From assembly GCF_029975155.1 (NCBI RefSeq), contig NZ_JARKPQ010000090.1:1-64000 (forward strand): a stretch of 64,000 bases of DNA. Reading direction: 5' to 3'. The DNA is from Propionicimonas sp. (GTDB lineage: Bacteria > Actinomycetota > Actinomycetes > Propionibacteriales > Propionibacteriaceae). The position numbers were made by a program, and so were the translations under genes. Position 1 is the stretch's first letter. Every line of letters begins with the position of its first letter. Below are positions 55,468-62,129 of this stretch, piece by piece. Under the pieces are notes generated by a model, which was not told the origin of the DNA, did not search any database, and worked only from the letters and a program-made list of their open reading frames with translations.

Positions 55468-56088
55468 TCACAGCATCAGCGGCACGTACTTGGTCACCAC
55501 CAGCATCACCACGACGGACAGCCACACCGCCACCAGCAGCGCGTCCAGGTCGGCGGCGACCATCCGCCGCGCCACCCGGCTGGCGCGCTCGGGCAGGTAG
55601 AGGTTGCCGTCCCTGATGTTCACGTGGGTGAGCGACGTGAACACCAGCGTGGTGGACAGCGTCACCAGCAGGCACCACGGGCAGAGGGCGCCGATCACGA
55701 CGTAGGCCTGGAAGAACAGCCAGTACGCGAACACCAGTCCCAGGGTGTAGACCACCTGCGCGGCGAGCATGAACCACCGCGGGAACCGCACCCCGCCGAG
55801 ACTGGCCACGGCGATGGTGATCACCACCGGCTCCGCGATCAACCCGAGGAACGCGTTCGGGAAGCCGAACACGCTGGCCTGCCACGAGGCGCCGACCGTG
55901 CCGCAGCTGAGCACGGCGTTGATGTTGCAGGCCAGCTGGGCGCCCGGGTCCGCCGCCAGCACCACCGCGTCCACGGACAGGACGAACGAGGCGGTGAGGC
56001 TGAGCAGGGCCGAGATCAGCATCGTGGTGTAGATCCAGCCATTGGACTGGCGGAGCCGGCGCAGTCCGGCCAGGGCCGACTCAGGCAC
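55468..56088 (-). CDS. Vitamin K epoxide reductase (VKOR) family protein
   Basis: The 206-residue product starts at a GTG that lies 8 nt inside the end of the DsbA gene. Five hydrophobic segments are seen. The four redox cysteines are Cys54 and Cys62 in the loop AACNINAVLSCGTVG... and the active-site pair Cys136-Pro-Trp-Cys139 (ALCPWCLL). VKOR replaces DsbB in Actinobacteria and re-oxidises DsbA with quinone. Co-transcription with a DsbA-like gene directly supports this role in disulfide formation outside the membrane. Confidence 0.92.
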   Translation of the reverse strand: MPESALAGLRRLRQSNGWIYTTMLISALLSLTASFVLSVDAVVLAADPGAQLACNINAVLSCGTVGASWQASVFGFPNAFLGLIAEPVVITIAVASLGGVRFPRWFMLAAQVVYTLGLVFAYWLFFQAYVVIGALCPWCLLVTLSTTLVFTSLTHVNIRDGNLYLPERASRVARRMVAADLDALLVAVWLSVVVMLVVTKYVPLML

Positions 56089-56860
56089 TGGCTGCGTCCT
56101 CGATGGCCCGGGCCAGCGGGCCCGCGGTGTAGACGTCGCCGCCGAACACCTCGCCGTTGATCTTCACCGTCGGCGTGCCCTTGATGCCCGAGTCCCACGC
56201 CTGGTCCGTGATCTTCTGCACCCACGGCACCCAGCTCTGCCGGCCGAAGTCGGCGGTCACCGACGCGGGGACGCCCACCTGCTGGGCGAACGCGACGAGC
56301 TGGGCGTCACTGAGCCCGGACGAGCCCTCCGCCGGCTGGTTCTCGTAGAGCACCCGGTAGAAGTCCAGGGCGTGGCCCGGATCGGCGTTGGCGATCGTGA
56401 CGAAGGCGTTCGCAGCCCTGGTGGAGTACCTGGTGCCTGAGGACTGCGGGTCGAGGAAGGACATCGGATGGATCTCCAGCTTCGCCTTGCCGGAGCTCAC
56501 GGCGTTGGCGAGGTCGGCGCCGTTGGCCCGCTCGAACTGACCGCAGTAGGGGCACATGAAGTCGGCGTAGATCGAGACGGTCACGGTCGCCGCCCGGTCG
56601 CCGAGCACGACGGCGCCGGCGTCCGTGGCCCCGGCCGGGACAACCAGCGCGCCGGTGGCGCCGCCGGTCTGGCCCGGGCGGGCGACGGACCAGACGGTCA
56701 CGCCGAGCATGAGGGCGATCACGGCGAGGCCGGCGATCCAGGCGGCGCGGATCACGTGCCGGGTGCGGCGGGACGCCGCGTCCGCGGCCTCGCGCTGGCG
56801 CCGCAGCGTCTCGCGCCGGTCGGGTGAGGAGGAGTTGGTGGATGGACGGGATGAGGACAT
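56081..56860 (-). CDS. DsbA-like membrane-anchored thiol:disulfide oxidoreductase
   Basis: The 259-residue protein has a cytoplasmic N-terminus, one transmembrane helix (37-60) and an extracytoplasmic thioredoxin fold of the DsbA/Thioredoxin_4 type. The active site is FMCPYC (Cys103, Cys106), and the cis-Pro loop is in IKGTPTVKINGEVF. It introduces disulfides into exported proteins and is recharged by the VKOR protein encoded downstream, which overlaps its 3' end. The start at 56860 follows GAGAAA. Confidence 0.92.
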   Translation of the reverse strand: MSSSRPSTNSSSPDRRETLRRQREAADAASRRTRHVIRAAWIAGLAVIALMLGVTVWSVARPGQTGGATGALVVPAGATDAGAVVLGDRAATVTVSIYADFMCPYCGQFERANGADLANAVSSGKAKLEIHPMSFLDPQSSGTRYSTRAANAFVTIANADPGHALDFYRVLYENQPAEGSSGLSDAQLVAFAQQVGVPASVTADFGRQSWVPWVQKITDQAWDSGIKGTPTVKINGEVFGGDVYTAGPLARAIEDAASA

Positions 56861-56983
56861 GGTTGTTTCTCTCCGGGCGTTCAGCCCTGCTGAGCGTGTG
56901 CGATGCGGGACGGCGGACGGCCGTCGGTGCGCGGTAGGGCGCGTGGCCGCGTCCACACCGGGACGCGGGCGGTGATCAGAGCA

Positions 56984-57463
56984 TCAGCAGGAGCGGGACG
57001 GCGGACCCCGGCGCGGGTTCTCGCGCGACCGGGCGGCGCTCTGGTAGCGCACCCGGACGGGCACCGGGACGGGCCGGGCCTGCGGCACGACCAGCGCCGA
57101 GAGTTCGACGAGCGCCGCGGCGAGCGCGCGGTGGGCGGACGTGGCCAGGCGCAGCGCGCCACGGACCAGCAGTGCACCGGCGGTGATCAGCAGCGGCAGC
57201 AGGAGCAGTTGCACCAGCAGCGTCGCGGCGATCATCAGCGTCCAGCTGACGGCCGGCGTCGGGGCGCTCACACAGTGCACGTCGCCGGAGAACCCGGTGG
57301 TCGCCACCCATTCGTACAGCGGGTGCCCGGCGTCGAAGCAGGCCACCACGCTCACCTTGGGCAGCCGCAACAGCAGCGGCAGCAACCCCACGATCGTGAG
57401 CGCGCCCGCAGCCACCCGCGCCCCGATCCCGGGCCGCGGCAGCCAGCGTCGCGCAGTGTGCAC
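56984..57463 (-). CDS. Putative membrane protein upstream of the DsbA-VKOR pair
   Basis: This 159-residue frame starts at a GTG at 57463. It has two hydrophobic segments (about 14-32 and 73-100) with a Cys-containing external loop between them (VACFDAGHPLYEWVATTGFS, then DVHCVS), and a basic C-terminal tail. The two loop cysteines would be outside the membrane and could be substrates of the DsbA/VKOR pair encoded downstream. It is on the same strand, 123 bp before the DsbA gene. No family is recognised. Confidence 0.6.
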   Translation of the reverse strand: MHTARRWLPRPGIGARVAAGALTIVGLLPLLLRLPKVSVVACFDAGHPLYEWVATTGFSGDVHCVSAPTPAVSWTLMIAATLLVQLLLLPLLITAGALLVRGALRLATSAHRALAAALVELSALVVPQARPVPVPVRVRYQSAARSRENPRRGPPSRSC

Positions 57464-57532
57464 GGACCGAATCCTACCAACCGCCAGTCATGCCCACCTG
57501 TCCACTCCCGGGTGACCGGCCGCAGCCCCAGG

Positions 57533-57659
57533 TCATCCCCGGCCCCCCACACCCTCCCGGCCCCCCACACCATCCCGGCCCCCCACACCATCCCGGCCCC
57601 CCACGCCATCCCGGCCCCCCACGCCATCCCGGCCCCCCACGCCATCCCGGCCCCCCACG
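57533..57659. repeat. Tandem array of seven 18-bp units (CATCCCGGCCCCCCACGC)
   Basis: Units start at 57533 (19 bp), 57552, 57570, 57588, 57606, 57624 and 57642 and then run into a complete family-2 repeat at 57660. Each unit begins like the 5' arm of that repeat (CATCCCGG), so the array appears to have grown from it. The frame is translatable in several phases but not convincingly coding. Confidence 0.9.
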
Positions 57660-57737
57660 CCATCCCGGGCTTGACCCGGGATCCCGTACGCCGGGTTGCC
57701 AGGTCGGTGCGGGGATCCCGGCGTCCGCCGGGATGAC
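57660..57737. repeat. Family-2 palindromic repeat pair
   Basis: CATCCCGGGCTTGACCCGGG and the inverted GATCCCGGCGTCCGCCGGGA form two strong hairpins around a 20-bp spacer. Fragments continue to about 57785 (CCGGCATCCGCCGGATGAC). Confidence 0.88.
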
Positions 57738-57823
57738 GTAGGGGGCCGGGATGACAGGCTCCCGGCATCCGCCGGATGACAGGCGTCCGCCAGCCGGCTG
57801 CGGGACCCCGTTGGGGGGCGTGT

Positions 57824-57829
57824 TACCCT
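57824..57829 (+). promoter_or_regulatory. -10 box TACCCT for a leaderless leader ORF
   Basis: TACCCT ends 7 nt before the ATG at 57836. This is the arrangement of leaderless cysteine-leader ORFs in mycobacteria. Confidence 0.6.
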
Positions 57830-57835
57830 CGTGGC

Positions 57836-57919
57836 ATGCACACCTGCCGCTGGCTCGAAGCTCCGCTGAGCTCCCCGCGCGCCCTCTCGTGCATGTGTTG
57901 TTGTCGCAGCCTGGCCTGA
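57836..57919 (+). CDS. Cysteine-rich leader peptide (putative attenuator)
   Basis: A 27-codon ORF begins MHTCRWLEAPLSS and continues PRALSCMCCCRSLA before a TGA at 57917. It contains five cysteines: Cys4, Cys19, Cys21, Cys22 and Cys23. The run Cys21-23 uses three consecutive TGT codons, although TGC dominates in this genome. Polycysteine leaderless ORFs act as cysteine-responsive attenuators in mycobacteria, where ribosome stalling at Cys codons controls the downstream operon. The genes downstream encode DUF4395, a thioredoxin and serine acetyltransferase, the first enzyme of cysteine synthesis, which fits precisely. No other product role is likely. Confidence 0.82.
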   Translation: MHTCRWLEAPLSSPRALSCMCCCRSLA

Positions 57920-57928
57920 CCGCAGCCT

Positions 57929-57944
57929 GACGCCTCCCGGCGTC
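57929..57944 (+). promoter_or_regulatory. Hairpin following the cysteine leader ORF
   Basis: GACGCC-TCCC-GGCGTC is a perfect 6-bp stem with a tetraloop, 9 nt after the leader stop codon and 65 nt before the DUF4395 start. It may be one of the alternative structures for attenuation. GCCCGCCGGCGG further on (near 57970) offers a competing pairing. Confidence 0.45.
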
Positions 57945-58009
57945 CCCGAACCCTTCACCGCCCGCCGGCGGACGCTGCCTGCCACCCCGACCGACCAGAG
58001 GATCCGACA

Positions 58010-58495
58010 ATGCCCACTTCTTCCTCGCCCGCCACGTCCGGCGGCGTCGTCCTGATCGACCCGCGCGGCCCGCGCTTCGCCGCCGCCATCACGTCCGCGG
58101 TCCTGGCCGGCGCCCTGCTCGCCGGTCCCCAGTACGGACTGCTCCTGCTCGTCGTCCAGGCGTGCGCCTTCGGCGCCGGCTCACTGCTCGGCCTGCGGTA
58201 CCAGCCGTACGGCTGGGTGTTCCGCCGGCTGGTCCGCCCGCGGCTGCCCGAGCCCCCGGAGCTCGAGGACGAGCGGCCGCCGCGGTTCGCGCAGACCGTC
58301 GGCCTCGGCTTCGCCGTCCTCGCGCTGATCGGGGCGCTGGCCCAACTGCCGGCGCTGTTCTACGCGGCGACCGGACTGGCGCTCGTGGCCGCACTGCTGA
58401 ACGCCGTGTTCGACTTCTGCCTCGGCTGCGAGCTGTACCTGCTCGGCCGGCGGCTGTCCGGCCGCCACGCGGCGAGCGGGGCGGTGTCGCGATGA
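58010..58495 (+). CDS. DUF4395 membrane protein
   Basis: The 161-residue protein has the DUF4395 pattern: VLIDPRGPRFAAAITSAVLAGALL, LRYQPYGWVFRRLVRPRL, and the C-terminal FDFCLGCELYLLGRR with two cysteines (CLGC). About four transmembrane helices are visible. DUF4395 proteins are often encoded with thioredoxin or rhodanese genes and are suspected to take part in sulfur or thiol redox work at the membrane, but biochemical proof is lacking to my knowledge. It is the first gene behind the cysteine leader and overlaps the next (ATGA). Confidence 0.9.
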   Translation: MPTSSSPATSGGVVLIDPRGPRFAAAITSAVLAGALLAGPQYGLLLLVVQACAFGAGSLLGLRYQPYGWVFRRLVRPRLPEPPELEDERPPRFAQTVGLGFAVLALIGALAQLPALFYAATGLALVAALLNAVFDFCLGCELYLLGRRLSGRHAASGAVSR

Positions 58496-58923
58496 CCGGC
58501 GTGTACGTGCTGGCGCTGGCCCTGCTGCTGGCGCTCGGCTTCGGCCTGTACCGCAGGACCGTGGACGGGCGCGTCCAAGCCCTGGACGGACACCCGTCCG
58601 GCCTCGACGCCGGTCGCCTCGGCGAGGAGCTCGGCGCGGCGGCAACGTTCCTGCAGTTCTCCGCACCGGTCTGCGCGCCCTGCCGGGCGACCCGGCGCGT
58701 GCTCGGCGACCTCACCGCGGACTCCCCCGGCGTCGCCCACATCGAGATCGACGCGCAGCAGCGTCCCGACCTCGTGGACGAGCTGGGAATCATGCGCACC
58801 CCCACCGTGTTGTTGCTCGACGGCGGAGGCAGGGTGCGCGGCCGAATCGTCGGCGCACCCACCCGGCCGGACGCGCTGCGCGCCCTCGACACCCTTCTCA
58901 ACGACGGAAAGCGATCCCGATGA
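58492..58923 (+). CDS. Membrane-anchored thioredoxin-like protein
   Basis: The 143-residue product has an N-terminal hydrophobic anchor (4-20) and then a thioredoxin fold: LQFSAPVCAPCRATRRVL with the active site Cys61-Ala-Pro-Cys64, followed by IDAQQRPDLVDELGIMRTPTVLLL (cis-Pro in TPT) and GAPTRPDALRALD. The CAPC site differs from the usual CGPC. It lies between DUF4395 and cysE with ATGA overlaps on both sides, so all three proteins are made in concert. It is likely to reduce a sulfur compound or disulfide linked to cysteine supply. Confidence 0.9.
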   Translation: MTGVYVLALALLLALGFGLYRRTVDGRVQALDGHPSGLDAGRLGEELGAAATFLQFSAPVCAPCRATRRVLGDLTADSPGVAHIEIDAQQRPDLVDELGIMRTPTVLLLDGGGRVRGRIVGAPTRPDALRALDTLLNDGKRSR

Positions 58924-59708
58924 CCACCCACCGCGACGACGTGTGGACCCGCGTCCGCACCGAGGTCGGCGCAGACGCCCAGGCCGAACCCGCCCTGGCG
59001 AGCTTCCTGCACACCACGGTCCTCTCGCACGCCCGGCTCGAGGACGCGCTCAGTTTCATCCTCGCCAGCAAGCTCGGCAGTGAGACCATCACCTCGCTCA
59101 GCCTGCGCGAGCTGATCGGCCGGGCCTTCGACGACGACCGCTCGATCGGCGTCGCTGTCCGCGAGGACCTGCGGGCCGTGCTCAGCCGCGACCCGGCCAC
59201 CCGGGGCTACTCCCAGCCGCTGCTGTACTTCAAGGGCTTCCACGCCCTGCAGGCCTACCGGGTCGCCCACTACTACTGGACGCACGACCGGCCCGCGCTG
59301 GCGTTGTACCTGCAGAGCCGGATCTCCGAGGTGTTCGCCGTCGACATCCACCCCGGTGCGCGGATCGGCAAGGGCATCATGTTCGACCACGCCACCTCGG
59401 TGGTGATCGGCGAGACCGCGGTCGTCGAGGACGACTTCTCGATGCTGCACGAGGTGACCCTCGGCGGCACCGGCAAGATCGGCGGCGACCGGCACCCGAA
59501 GATCGGCCGCGGCGTGATGATCGGTGCCGGCGCGAAGGTGCTGGGCAACATCCGGGTGGGCGAGGGCGCCAAGGTCGGCGCCGGCTCGGTGGTGCTGGAG
59601 GACGTCCCGGCCTACACCACGGTCGCCGGCATCCCGGCGCGTCCGGTGGCCTACCCCGAGCACGCCCTCCCCGCGCTGGACGCCCTGAACCCGCTCACCG
59701 AGGGCTGA
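58920..59708 (+). CDS. cysE: Serine O-acetyltransferase
   Basis: The 262-residue protein is of the E. coli CysE type. An N-terminal helical domain (1-140, SFLHTTVLSHARLEDALSFI) precedes the left-handed beta-helix hexapeptide domain with FAVDIHPGARIGKGIMFDHAT, VVIGETAVVEDDFSMLHEVTLGG and IGAGAKVLGNIRVGEGAKVGAGS. The catalytic His-Asp pair lies in these loops (IHPGA and FDHAT). It makes O-acetylserine from serine and acetyl-CoA, the carbon backbone for cysteine. It is the last gene of the operon behind the cysteine leader. A long hairpin follows 11 nt later. Confidence 0.95.
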   Translation: MTTHRDDVWTRVRTEVGADAQAEPALASFLHTTVLSHARLEDALSFILASKLGSETITSLSLRELIGRAFDDDRSIGVAVREDLRAVLSRDPATRGYSQPLLYFKGFHALQAYRVAHYYWTHDRPALALYLQSRISEVFAVDIHPGARIGKGIMFDHATSVVIGETAVVEDDFSMLHEVTLGGTGKIGGDRHPKIGRGVMIGAGAKVLGNIRVGEGAKVGAGSVVLEDVPAYTTVAGIPARPVAYPEHALPALDALNPLTEG

Positions 59709-59719
59709 CCCACAACCCC

Positions 59720-59777
59720 GGGGACAGGTCCCAGTCCCGTTCACGTCACAGGCTGAACGGGAATGGGACCTGTCCCC
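59720..59777. terminator. Long hairpin after cysE (24-bp arms)
   Basis: Arms 59720-59743 and 59754-59777 pair at 23 of 24 positions around a 10-nt loop. The stem contains GGGGACAGGTCCC and CCGTTCA, sharing the GAACGG motif with the hairpins at 29475 and 31527. It probably ends the cysE transcript. Confidence 0.6.
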
Positions 59778-59787
59778 ACTCCCGTGG

Positions 59788-59888
59788 CAACCCTCAACCC
59801 AACCCTTAAGGGTGACTTGAGGTGCCTCTTCGGAAAAACCCCTAGTCAGCGCAACTTTGTCCACCGAGAGGGCGACCGCAACCCTCAA
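59788..59888 (+). promoter_or_regulatory. Leader region of the NlpC/P60 gene with CAACCCTYAA repeats
   Basis: CAACCCTCAA occurs at 59788 and 59879 and CAACCCTTAA at 59800. ACCCTTAAGGGT (59802-59813) is a perfect 12-bp palindrome, followed by GACTTGAGG. They may be operator sites of a cell-envelope regulator or part of a structured leader. No known riboswitch class fits. Confidence 0.35.
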
Positions 59889-59933
59889 GGAGACCCTTGC
59901 CCGCCGGCGGCCGGGCTAGGTACGAAGACCCTT

Positions 59934-62129
59934 GTGAAAGCTGTGACGAGAGTGCTGTCTGTGGCCATTGCGGTAGCCGTGACGCTCGGCTGCGCGCTCG
60001 TTCAGTCCCCTTCGGCAGAAGCCGTCTCGGCCAGCGCGAAGACCAAATTCATCGCCAGCATGGTCACCGCCGCCCAGAAGACGCAGCGGAAGTTCGGGGT
60101 CCCGGCGTCGGTCTCGATGGCCCTGGCGATCGCGGCGTCCGACTGGGGCACCTCGTCGGTGGTGGCCAAGACCAAGAACTACTTCGACACCCCCTGCAGC
60201 GGTTCGATGACCGCCGCGCAGTTCGCCAAGCTGGCCGAGGCGCAGGTGGGCAAGCCGTACGTGCTCGGCGCGGAGGCTGCGATCACGAACCCCAACCCGC
60301 CGAAGTTCGACTGCTCCGAGCTCGTGCAGTGGCTGTACGGCCGCTCCGGAAACCCGATCACCGACCTGGCCGCCTCGCAGTACAACGTGACCAAGAAGGT
60401 CGCGTCCGGTGACTCCCCCAAGGTCGGCGACCTGGTCTTCCTGCGCAACAACCCCGCCCGTTCGAACGGCATCGGCCACGTCGCCGTGCTGACCAAGAAG
60501 CGGGCCGACGGCGAGTGGGAGATCGTCGAGGCCCGCGGACGGGCCTACGGCGTGGTCAAGACCACCCTGAGCTACTGGAAGCAGCGCTCCCACTACGCCG
60601 GGCTGCGCAGGTATGCGTCCTTCGTGCTGGTGAACGGGGACAGCGTCACCGCGTCCGCCGCCGGCGACTACCGGACGAAGTGCGTGAAGGTCGGCTCGAC
60701 CACGTACTCGGCGTTCTCGTCGATGACCAACTCCTTCTACGCGAACGCCGCCGCGATCACCGAGGACTCCGCCTACGCGGACGCCCGCGCGGTGCTGTCC
60801 AGCGTCCCCAAGCTGGTGAACGCGATCGCGAAGGTCGTCAAGCCGAAGGACTCCGCCGGCTACGCCAAGACCCTGACCTCGCTCATCGACACCTACCACC
60901 TCACCGACTACGACATCGTCCCGATCGGGATCGTGCTCGTCTCGGGCAACAGCGGGACGAAGGTCACGGCGCTGCAGCACCTGCTGAAGGCGGCGGGCCA
61001 GAGCGTCACCGTCACCGGGAAGTACGACGCCAAGACCGTCTCCGCGGTGAAGAAGTTCCAGAAGGCCAAGAAGCTGGAGTCCGACGGCGAGGCCGGTCAG
61101 TACACGCTGTCCGCGCTGTTCTCGACGCTGACCTCCGGCGCGTCCGGGGCGTCCGCCCAGGCGCTGAACGTCCTGCTCGACGGGTTGGGCTATGCCACCA
61201 CGGCCGGCAGCAGCTTCGGGACGGCCACCCTCGCGGCGGTGAAGGCGTTCCAGACCACCGCGGGCCGCAGCGCGACCGGCACGGTCGACCCGAACACCTG
61301 GGCCGCCCTGTTCATGTCCCTGGACTCACAGGCGCCGAAGATCAGCGGCACCACCCGGGTCGGGCAGACCCTCACCGCCACCGTGGACAAGTGGGGCCCG
61401 GGCACGGTCTCCCTGGCCTACCAGTGGTATCGCAACAACACGGCGATCGGCGGCGCGGAGGACACCAGCTACACCCTGCGGGCCGAGGACGCGGGCAAGA
61501 CCATCACCGTCGTGGTGACCGGCACCAGGGCGGGCTACACCGTGACCAGCCGCAGTTCCGCGGCGACCAAGCAGATCGAGAGCAACACGCTCGGCACCGC
61601 GCCGGTGCCCACGGTCAAGGGCACGGCGCAAGTGGGCAAGAAGCTCACGGTGACCGCCGGCACCTGGAAGCCGGCTCCGGTCGCCCTCGCCTACCAGTGG
61701 CTGCGCGACGGCGAGGCGATCGCCGGCGCCACCAAGACCACCTACACCGTGCAGGCGGCCGACGTGGACGCCAAGCTTTCCGTCACGGTCACGGGCACCA
61801 AGGCGGGTTACGAGCCGGTGGCCAAGACGTCCGAAGAGACCGACAAGGTGGCGAAGGGCCAGCTCACCGGCAAGAAGCCGGCCATCCGCGGCACCCGCGA
61901 CGTGGGCGTGACGCTCAAGGTCGAGGTCAGCACCTGGTCGCCGTCCGGGGTGAAGCTCACCTACCAGTGGTACCGGGGCAGCAGCGCCATCAAGGGCGCG
62001 ACGAAGACGAAGTACAAGCTGACGAAGTCCGACAAGGGCAAGCAGCTCACCGTCGTCGTGACGGGCACCAAGGACGGCTACGAGACACTGGAACTGCGCT
62101 CCGCGAAGACCAGGAAGGTCACGACCTGA
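59934..62129 (+). CDS. Secreted NlpC/P60 peptidoglycan hydrolase with PG-binding and Ig-like repeats
   Basis: The 731-residue product starts at a GTG at 59934 with a signal peptide (1-30). Residues 38-85 look like the first helices of a glucosaminidase domain, but the usual ESGWG motif reads ASDWG and the rest is missing. An NlpC/P60 domain follows with Cys127 (KFDCSELVQW) and His182 (GIGHVAVL). Two peptidoglycan-binding repeats lie at about 345-395 and 405-460. Three Ig-like repeats of about 85 residues (each with TYQWYR- or AYQWLR-like strands) complete the protein. It cleaves peptide stems of peptidoglycan at the cell surface. Confidence 0.88.
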   Translation: MKAVTRVLSVAIAVAVTLGCALVQSPSAEAVSASAKTKFIASMVTAAQKTQRKFGVPASVSMALAIAASDWGTSSVVAKTKNYFDTPCSGSMTAAQFAKLAEAQVGKPYVLGAEAAITNPNPPKFDCSELVQWLYGRSGNPITDLAASQYNVTKKVASGDSPKVGDLVFLRNNPARSNGIGHVAVLTKKRADGEWEIVEARGRAYGVVKTTLSYWKQRSHYAGLRRYASFVLVNGDSVTASAAGDYRTKCVKVGSTTYSAFSSMTNSFYANAAAITEDSAYADARAVLSSVPKLVNAIAKVVKPKDSAGYAKTLTSLIDTYHLTDYDIVPIGIVLVSGNSGTKVTALQHLLKAAGQSVTVTGKYDAKTVSAVKKFQKAKKLESDGEAGQYTLSALFSTLTSGASGASAQALNVLLDGLGYATTAGSSFGTATLAAVKAFQTTAGRSATGTVDPNTWAALFMSLDSQAPKISGTTRVGQTLTATVDKWGPGTVSLAYQWYRNNTAIGGAEDTSYTLRAEDAGKTITVVVTGTRAGYTVTSRSSAATKQIESNTLGTAPVPTVKGTAQVGKKLTVTAGTWKPAPVALAYQWLRDGEAIAGATKTTYTVQAADVDAKLSVTVTGTKAGYEPVAKTSEETDKVAKGQLTGKKPAIRGTRDVGVTLKVEVSTWSPSGVKLTYQWYRGSSAIKGATKTKYKLTKSDKGKQLTVVVTGTKDGYETLELRSAKTRKVTT

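Follow-up and report, generated by a model that had tools for sequence, protein, structure and literature searches.

A probable cysteine-sensing leader ORF upstream of a DUF4395-thioredoxin-cysE operon in Propionicimonas

A 27-codon ORF with a run of three cysteine codons lies directly upstream of a DUF4395-thioredoxin-cysE operon in Propionicimonas sp., and its sequence, its relatives and the genes behind it give us good confidence that it acts as a cysteine-sensing leader for that operon. Positions are those of the window, the whole 64,000-nucleotide stretch of DNA that was analyzed. A first-pass annotation of the window had proposed a leaderless cysteine leader ORF ahead of a cysteine-related operon, a proposal that our analysis supports. 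The elements are arranged as follows.

57821..57829, plus strand: TGn-TANNNT promoter element (TGT TACCCT), from sequence; TGn is common in relatives
57836..57919, plus strand: leader ORF MHTCRWLEAPLSSPRALSCMCCCRSLA, 27 codons and TGA, from sequence and controls; conserved in seven species
57896..57904, plus strand: Cys-run codons TGT TGT TGT (residues 21-23), presumed sensing site; invariant in 7/7 species
57920..58009, plus strand: C-rich spacer from leader stop to DUF4395 start, where the output step presumably takes place, from sequence
58010..58495, plus strand: DUF4395 membrane protein (PF14340, E 1.7e-41)
58492..58923, plus strand: thioredoxin-like protein (PF00085, E 3.4e-07)
58920..59708, plus strand: cysE, serine O-acetyltransferase (PF06426, E 6.7e-37; TIGR01172, 239 bits, cut-off 210.65)

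In the mechanism that we propose, a leaderless transcript would be translated from its 5' AUG, a start predicted from promoter spacing. When charged Cys-tRNA is scarce, the ribosome would pause on the UGU-UGU-UGU run, which is four codons short of the UGA, and the paused ribosome would alter the fate of the C-rich spacer such that expression of the operon rises. When cysteine is sufficient, the ribosome would instead run on and leave at the UGA, and the operon would be damped. The last step may be either masking of the DUF4395 ribosome site or Rho-dependent termination within the spacer.

The TACCCT at 57824-57829, within TGTTACCCT, belongs to a TGn-TANNNT element, and six bases separate it from the leader ATG at 57836, bearing out the initial description of a 27-codon ORF (57836-57919) 7 nt past TACCCT. 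Because a sigma-70 consensus scan of 57400-60000 gave no promoter pair, the putative leader promoter rests on the TGn-TANNNT spacing, which would place the transcript start at or next to the leader AUG. The TANNNT-to-start spacing fits in the window leader and in 25 of the 36 loci of a Propionibacteriaceae set. Moreover, a TGn stands ahead of the TANNNT in 23 of 25 Propionibacteriaceae leaders of the CC type, as opposed to 5 of 64 leaders of the RRxVD type. The peptide had been described as ending in Cys-Met-Cys-Cys-Cys; in fact RSLA comes after this tail, which is thus near the end of the peptide but not at it.

Several smaller features accompany the leader. Its 5' end, AUGCAC, is able to pair with GUGCAU over the Cys19-Met20 codons (57836-57895), and this modeled pairing would hide the leaderless start codon; all six pairs are kept in six of seven own-clade species and one is broken in the seventh (L181), with no covariation. 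The spacer contains a Shine-Dalgarno-like AGAGGA at 57997-58002. An Rfam scan found nothing over the gathering score at 57824-58009, the sole match in the window being a tRNA at 1468-1549.

We defined a CC leader by a fixed rule, namely a TANNNT beginning 12-13 nt before an ATG or GTG that opens an ORF of 15-45 aa with CC in its second half, all within 350 nt upstream of DUF4395. Loci came from a family sample (DUF4395 matched in 56 of 147 genomes; 30 best loci used, own included), a class sample (287 of 394 genomes; 30 best loci used), a named genome collection (80 loci used of at least 574 confirmed relatives), 30 hand-chosen genomes and the genus (18 of 30 genomes matching). The 155 distinct loci are what is left of 187 after removal of 27 duplicates and of 5 loci with <300 nt upstream. 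A CC leader is present in 37 of them and an RRxVD-type leader in 64; 91 have either type and 64 have neither. The Propionibacteriaceae set is a hand list of 38 loci, 36 of which passed the filter; it includes L041, recorded only as Actinomycetales, and lost L006, which has the leader, to the filter. Within this set, 25 of the 36 loci have a CC leader and none has the RRxVD motif.

Neither leader type is readily produced by chance. In dinucleotide shuffles, the CC rule was satisfied 7 times in 15500 overall and in 0 of 3600 sequences for the Propionibacteriaceae set, and the RRxVD rule in 0 of 15500. The reverse strand yielded 0 leaders of either type, and other tiles of the same loci yielded 1 CC and 2 RRxVD leaders in 1814, with 1 CC leader in 300 tiles of the Propionibacteriaceae set. 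We conclude from the 25 of 36 set loci, set against 0 of 3600 shuffles, that the window leader is not a chance ORF. Among the best loci of the family, 20 of 29 relatives have a short Cys-run ORF with its start codon 12-13 nt downstream of the first base of a TANNNT, and the nine without a leader have other upstream contexts. Tessaracoccus oleiagri is among the species with a leader. The full leader is found in 14 of the 18 DUF4395 loci of the genus, own included; one further locus is truncated at the end of its contig, where the Cys tail can still be made out, and the other three have no leader. We count the absences in the family (9/29), in the genus (3/18) and among the distinct loci (64/155) against cysteine sensing.

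The Cys codons are conserved against a drifting background. Identity across seven own-clade species, with the window counted among them, is 98% for the Cys tail, 71% for the remainder of the leader and 54% for the spacer, the last value being possibly too low because the spacer aligns poorly. The first-pass annotation had suggested, as a check, that Cys codons should be kept while other codons vary, and the leader passes it (98% versus 71%). The TGT-TGT-TGT run itself is invariant in all seven species. The use of TGT here despite a preference for TGC, remarked on at the outset, is evident from eight other ORFs of the window, which together contain 1 TGT and 17 TGC. The same bias extends to relatives: in 25 Propionibacteriaceae leaders, codons of the Cys run number 65 TGT to 11 TGC, isolated Cys codons of these leaders 3 TGT to 19 TGC, and Cys codons of the DUF4395 frame in Propionibacteriaceae loci 1 TGT to 51 TGC. 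For the 64 RRxVD leaders, the corresponding TGT:TGC counts are 31:11 in the run, 63:72 for isolated codons and 14:115 in the DUF4395 frame. The leaders are related, such that p-values overstate their independence, although run and isolated codons of the same leaders clearly differ.

The three genes of the operon are joined by overlapping stop and start codons, and the last of them is a serine acetyltransferase, as had been claimed, with a TIGR01172 score over the cut-off. cysE is the third gene in seven distinct own-clade loci, where CysE is 85-92% identical to that of the window; the only other CysE match, in L167, lies upstream of DUF4395. A cysK-type PLP enzyme takes the third position in L010, L012 and L018, and a rhodanese followed by DUF1416 comes after DUF4395-thioredoxin in L155 and L126. 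For L142 and L098, the ORFs picked behind the pair matched no Pfam family and are uninformative. The third genes of the loci looked at indicate that DUF4395-thioredoxin is a shared core and that the sulfur gene following it varies by lineage.

Leaders of this kind are already known, and the window leader is a diverged Propionibacteriaceae type, a distinct local form. Other papers cite Canestrari et al. 2020 (doi 10.1111/mmi.14498) for polycysteine leaderless short ORFs in M. smegmatis that reportedly confer cysteine-dependent control through contiguous Cys codons. Such attenuator ORFs are recognized by a Cys run that is conserved near the ORF end in relatives and by a position before a cysteine or sulfur operon, and both are found here. 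The window leader resembles the M. smegmatis polycysteine ORFs and the Ms5788A family (NF042933) in being a short Cys-run ORF, here predicted to be leaderless, directly before DUF4395-thioredoxin. The family occupies the same place upstream of DUF4395 in other genomes, although place is not a criterion of the model: leaders such as VSARLEPMLTKRRAVDLCRVAGCCCCCCSC, which scores 56.3 bits against NF042933 (cut-off 45 bits), stand directly 5' of DUF4395 in family f5 (mycobacterial by inference). The window leader differs in lacking both a match to the model, at E up to 10, and the RRxVD motif, and in having cysE as the third gene rather than rhodanese-DUF1416. It thus sits in the Ms5788A position and probably works like that family, although the family's own test places it outside. 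A second model of actinomycete leader peptides, NF042934 (cis_reg_atten, cut-off 27 bits), likewise gave no match to the window leader at E up to 10.

The two models do recognize RRxVD-type leaders. Ten of ten RRxVD-type peptides match NF042933 at E <= 0.00064, three of them over the cut-off, and 4 of 10 RRxVD-type DUF4395 leaders exceed the 27-bit cut-off of NF042934, which none of the 10 CC-type or short leaders tested alongside match. In three batches of leaders, 4/10, 6/10 and 10/10 were without an NCBIfam match; these are CC-type Propionibacteriaceae leaders, sister leaders and L041 (family uncertain). Some RRxVD leaders upstream of DUF4395, those of L137, L140, L142 and L143 (e.g. MFGTELWKRRAIDFGRAASMLCLP), have only one Cys and hardly fit simple poly-Cys sensing.

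Cysteine leaders have also been predicted closer to home. The accessible text of Seliverstov et al. 2005 (PMC1262725) predicts that Cys leader peptides precede cys operons in Mycobacterium spp. and Propionibacterium acnes as well as cbs in Bifidobacterium longum, with Rho suggested as the output. As far as that text goes, and compared by text rather than by figure coordinates, these leaders share with ours a short ORF, Cys codons near the stop, the absence of a terminator and the same bacterial family, but no DUF4395 operon is named. In mycobacteria, a Cys-rich uORF precedes cysA2 (Rv0815), for which the part of Shell et al. 2015 (PMC4633059) used here proposes cysteine attenuation and gives ribosome occupancy in M. 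smegmatis; according to that part, it likewise has a C-terminal Cys cluster and a conserved position, but it precedes cysA2, whereas the window leader precedes an operon with DUF4395 first and cysE last. In the literature searched, no listed title or abstract dealt with a DUF4395-linked cysteine leader, and the name Ms5788A did not occur. The novelty implied by the first-pass annotation was nonetheless too strong, as NF042933-type leaders precede DUF4395 elsewhere and, on the available text of the 2005 prediction for P. acnes, cysteine leaders in this bacterial family are not unprecedented. To these precedents our analysis adds a leader type that has diverged in Propionibacteriaceae, an operon ending in cysE, the TGT-biased Cys run and a group of sister leaders.

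These sister leaders emerged from two TGT-rich patterns, which occur 55 and 17 times in the own genome (64 and 5 in reversed controls, so that the first pattern is not itself enriched). Examination of all 72 places identified seven leaderless ORFs with Cys pairs, the window leader included. Sisters precede metY (TIGR01326), cysK (TIGR01139, L220) and the gene for an SsuA-type sulfonate-binding protein (TIGR01728), each over its cut-off, as well as a nirA-family reductase (NF007125, below cut-off, with the protein truncated where the locus ends) and a metN-like ATPase gene (TIGR02314, below cut-off). The remaining one, MSPDLVRAGAVAMVCACCCRMSF at L254:961-1032, has no recognized gene behind it. 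Because two TGT-rich patterns were used, the number is a lower bound and is biased to TGT; in addition, the genome is a draft with 8.31% contamination, and small contigs such as C51, the 4.8-kb source of the cysK leader, may be foreign. In the genus, own included, a leader stands ahead of nirA-like genes at 6 of 8 loci and ahead of metY at 14 of 24, several others having too little upstream DNA. Only 3 of 30 cysK loci in the genus have one, and cysK often lies behind metY or DUF4395-thioredoxin. Such a set of cysteine leaders in one genome resembles what the term "cysteine ribulon" denotes in mycobacteria; literature pairing the ribulon word stem with cysteine was unrelated by its titles.

The cysteine-related genes downstream, together with sister leaders before genes of sulfur metabolism or related transport, support cysteine sensing. 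Further support comes from the leaders matching the Ms5788A model on orthologous DUF4395 genes, given that their mycobacterial namesakes are reported in secondary papers as cysteine-dependent. One contender that would dispense with cysteine supply takes the peptide itself as the signal, through nascent-chain arrest or as a translation-coupling ORF. The RRxVD type lends this some substance, since residues other than Cys are conserved in it and a leader such as that of L137 has only one Cys, but RRxVD is missing from all 36 Propionibacteriaceae set loci, the Cys tail is kept above the rest of the leader, and the codon choice is conserved rather than the residue alone; we therefore consider a peptide signal improbable for the window leader. 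That the ORF is a functionless product of chance, for which its small size and lack of a family match might speak, is barely credible in view of the shuffle controls, the conservation in relatives, the codon contrast and the sister leaders.

How cysteine sensing would be converted into expression was addressed by structure predictions. The stem-loops that had been said to follow the leader are present as short hairpins, but the whole 195-nt RNA folds no better than its shuffles (z -0.43; 69 of 200 at least as stable), and they therefore carry no weight. A consensus fold of the seven species contains 29 pairs, of which 3 vary on both sides, over a poorly aligned spacer, and its covariation term (+0.25) is not in its favor. 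No terminator-like site turned up behind the leader when 57400-60000 was scanned, and a classical attenuator with an intrinsic terminator was rejected, as no GC-rich hairpin with a T run follows the leader. The sole terminator-like site in that range lies inside the leader at 57877-57892, with a 5-pair stem and a T-rich tail formed by the Cys codons (to 57904); one site compared with 0.5 in shuffles is within chance. Of the "cysteine attenuator" originally proposed, the reading as a cysteine leader ORF is thus well supported, but attenuation in the strict sense is not, there being no terminator-like site behind the leader and no detectable ribosome-site switch in a test that was itself blind, as described below.

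The output might be termination by Rho within the spacer, which is rich in C and poor in G; a paused ribosome would relieve it by keeping Rho off or by holding the RNA in another fold. C minus G averages 0.133 and is positive in 97% of the 86 leader loci with long enough spacers (of 91), whereas upstream of the promoter these loci average 0.011. These values fit a Rho site without proving it, the lack of a terminator-like site behind the leader agrees with it, and the accessible text of PMC1262725 makes the same proposal. However, C-rich leaders are also frequent where the leader ORF is absent (0.086, 75% positive, in 64 loci free of a leaderless ORF), and an upstream pause alone would expose the spacer to Rho, such that an extra structure, of which none was found, would be needed. 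Rho termination is accordingly a tentative assignment, with a likelihood somewhat short of even.

The other candidate output is masking, in which the ribosome-binding site of DUF4395 would be hidden by the spacer or the Cys run and freed only when a ribosome pauses at the Cys run; this is reportedly how the M. smegmatis ORFs operate. We compared the predicted accessibility of the DUF4395 ribosome site with the leader free and with the leader blocked up to the Cys run. Averaged over 24 Propionibacteriaceae leaders, accessibility rises from 0.53 to 0.59, with no clear excess over shuffles (0.47 to 0.52), and blocking at the stop codon is equivalent to blocking at the Cys run (0.587 and 0.587). 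The window leader is without signal (0.59 to 0.68; 11 of 30 shuffles shift at least as much). Seven mycobacterial-type leaders, left from nine after two were dropped by the filters, go from 0.44 to 0.51, compared with 0.42 to 0.50 in shuffles, and one is reversed; because even these give no excess, we regard the test as blind rather than negative. Eighteen other leaders shift at most weakly (0.435 to 0.538, shuffles 0.469 to 0.512). Individual leaders do exceed nearly all of their shuffles, namely L013, L015 and L012 (0, 1 and 2 of 30 shuffles reaching them) and L155 (1 of 24). Complementarity between Cys run and spacer has p values of 0.003 to 0.013 in L022, L027 and L018 and combines to a Stouffer z of -3.5 over 24 leaders that are related and not independent, but in the window the spacer shows no such complementarity (z +1.14). 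In the metY sister leader (L194, minus strand), ACAACAGCA lies in the spacer just before the metY Shine-Dalgarno site, and a predicted fold pairs the Cys run with this region, making it the best single candidate for a masking structure. Masking at the DUF4395 site therefore appears possible, if less than probable.

Taken together with the mycobacterial studies, these leaders extend cysteine-sensing leader ORFs to a set of Propionibacteriaceae operons, and they tie the DUF4395-thioredoxin pair, which is of unknown function, to cysteine supply. The NCBIfam leader models miss all Propionibacteriaceae CC-type leaders tested here. The leader set can be used for working out rules of codon choice, distance and spacer, and the near-fixed TGT run is a hint, easy to test, at how pausing is tuned. 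A broader reading, speculative and rather doubtful as a whole, is that Propionibacteriaceae have a cysteine ribulon of their own leader type, represented in this genome by six or more leaderless Cys leaders; in it, a near-fixed UGU run would do the sensing and selection would act on the wobble-read codon or its RNA. Seen with the RRxVD leaders, some of them single-Cys like MFGTELWKRRAIDFGRAASMLCLP of L137, the operon would then keep a leader across the class while its sensing shifts between poly-Cys starvation and a conserved, perhaps arrest-type, peptide.

The DNA flanking the leader and operon contains further elements. An 18-nt direct repeat array, CCCGGCCCCCCACRCCAT, occupies 57538-57668 just 5' of the leader promoter, and an inverted copy of the repeat follows the array at 57728-57753. 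On the minus strand at 56081-56956, a gene for a DsbA-like thioredoxin protein (PF13462, PF01323) places a further thiol-redox function near the operon. Right after cysE, at 59720-59777, is a near-perfect inverted repeat with 24-nt arms that are 96% complementary. Its core, GGGGACAGGTCCCANTCCC, has 146 copies in the genome at <=2 mismatches (0 for the reversed control) and belongs to a dispersed palindromic repeat family, members of which possibly serve as terminators.
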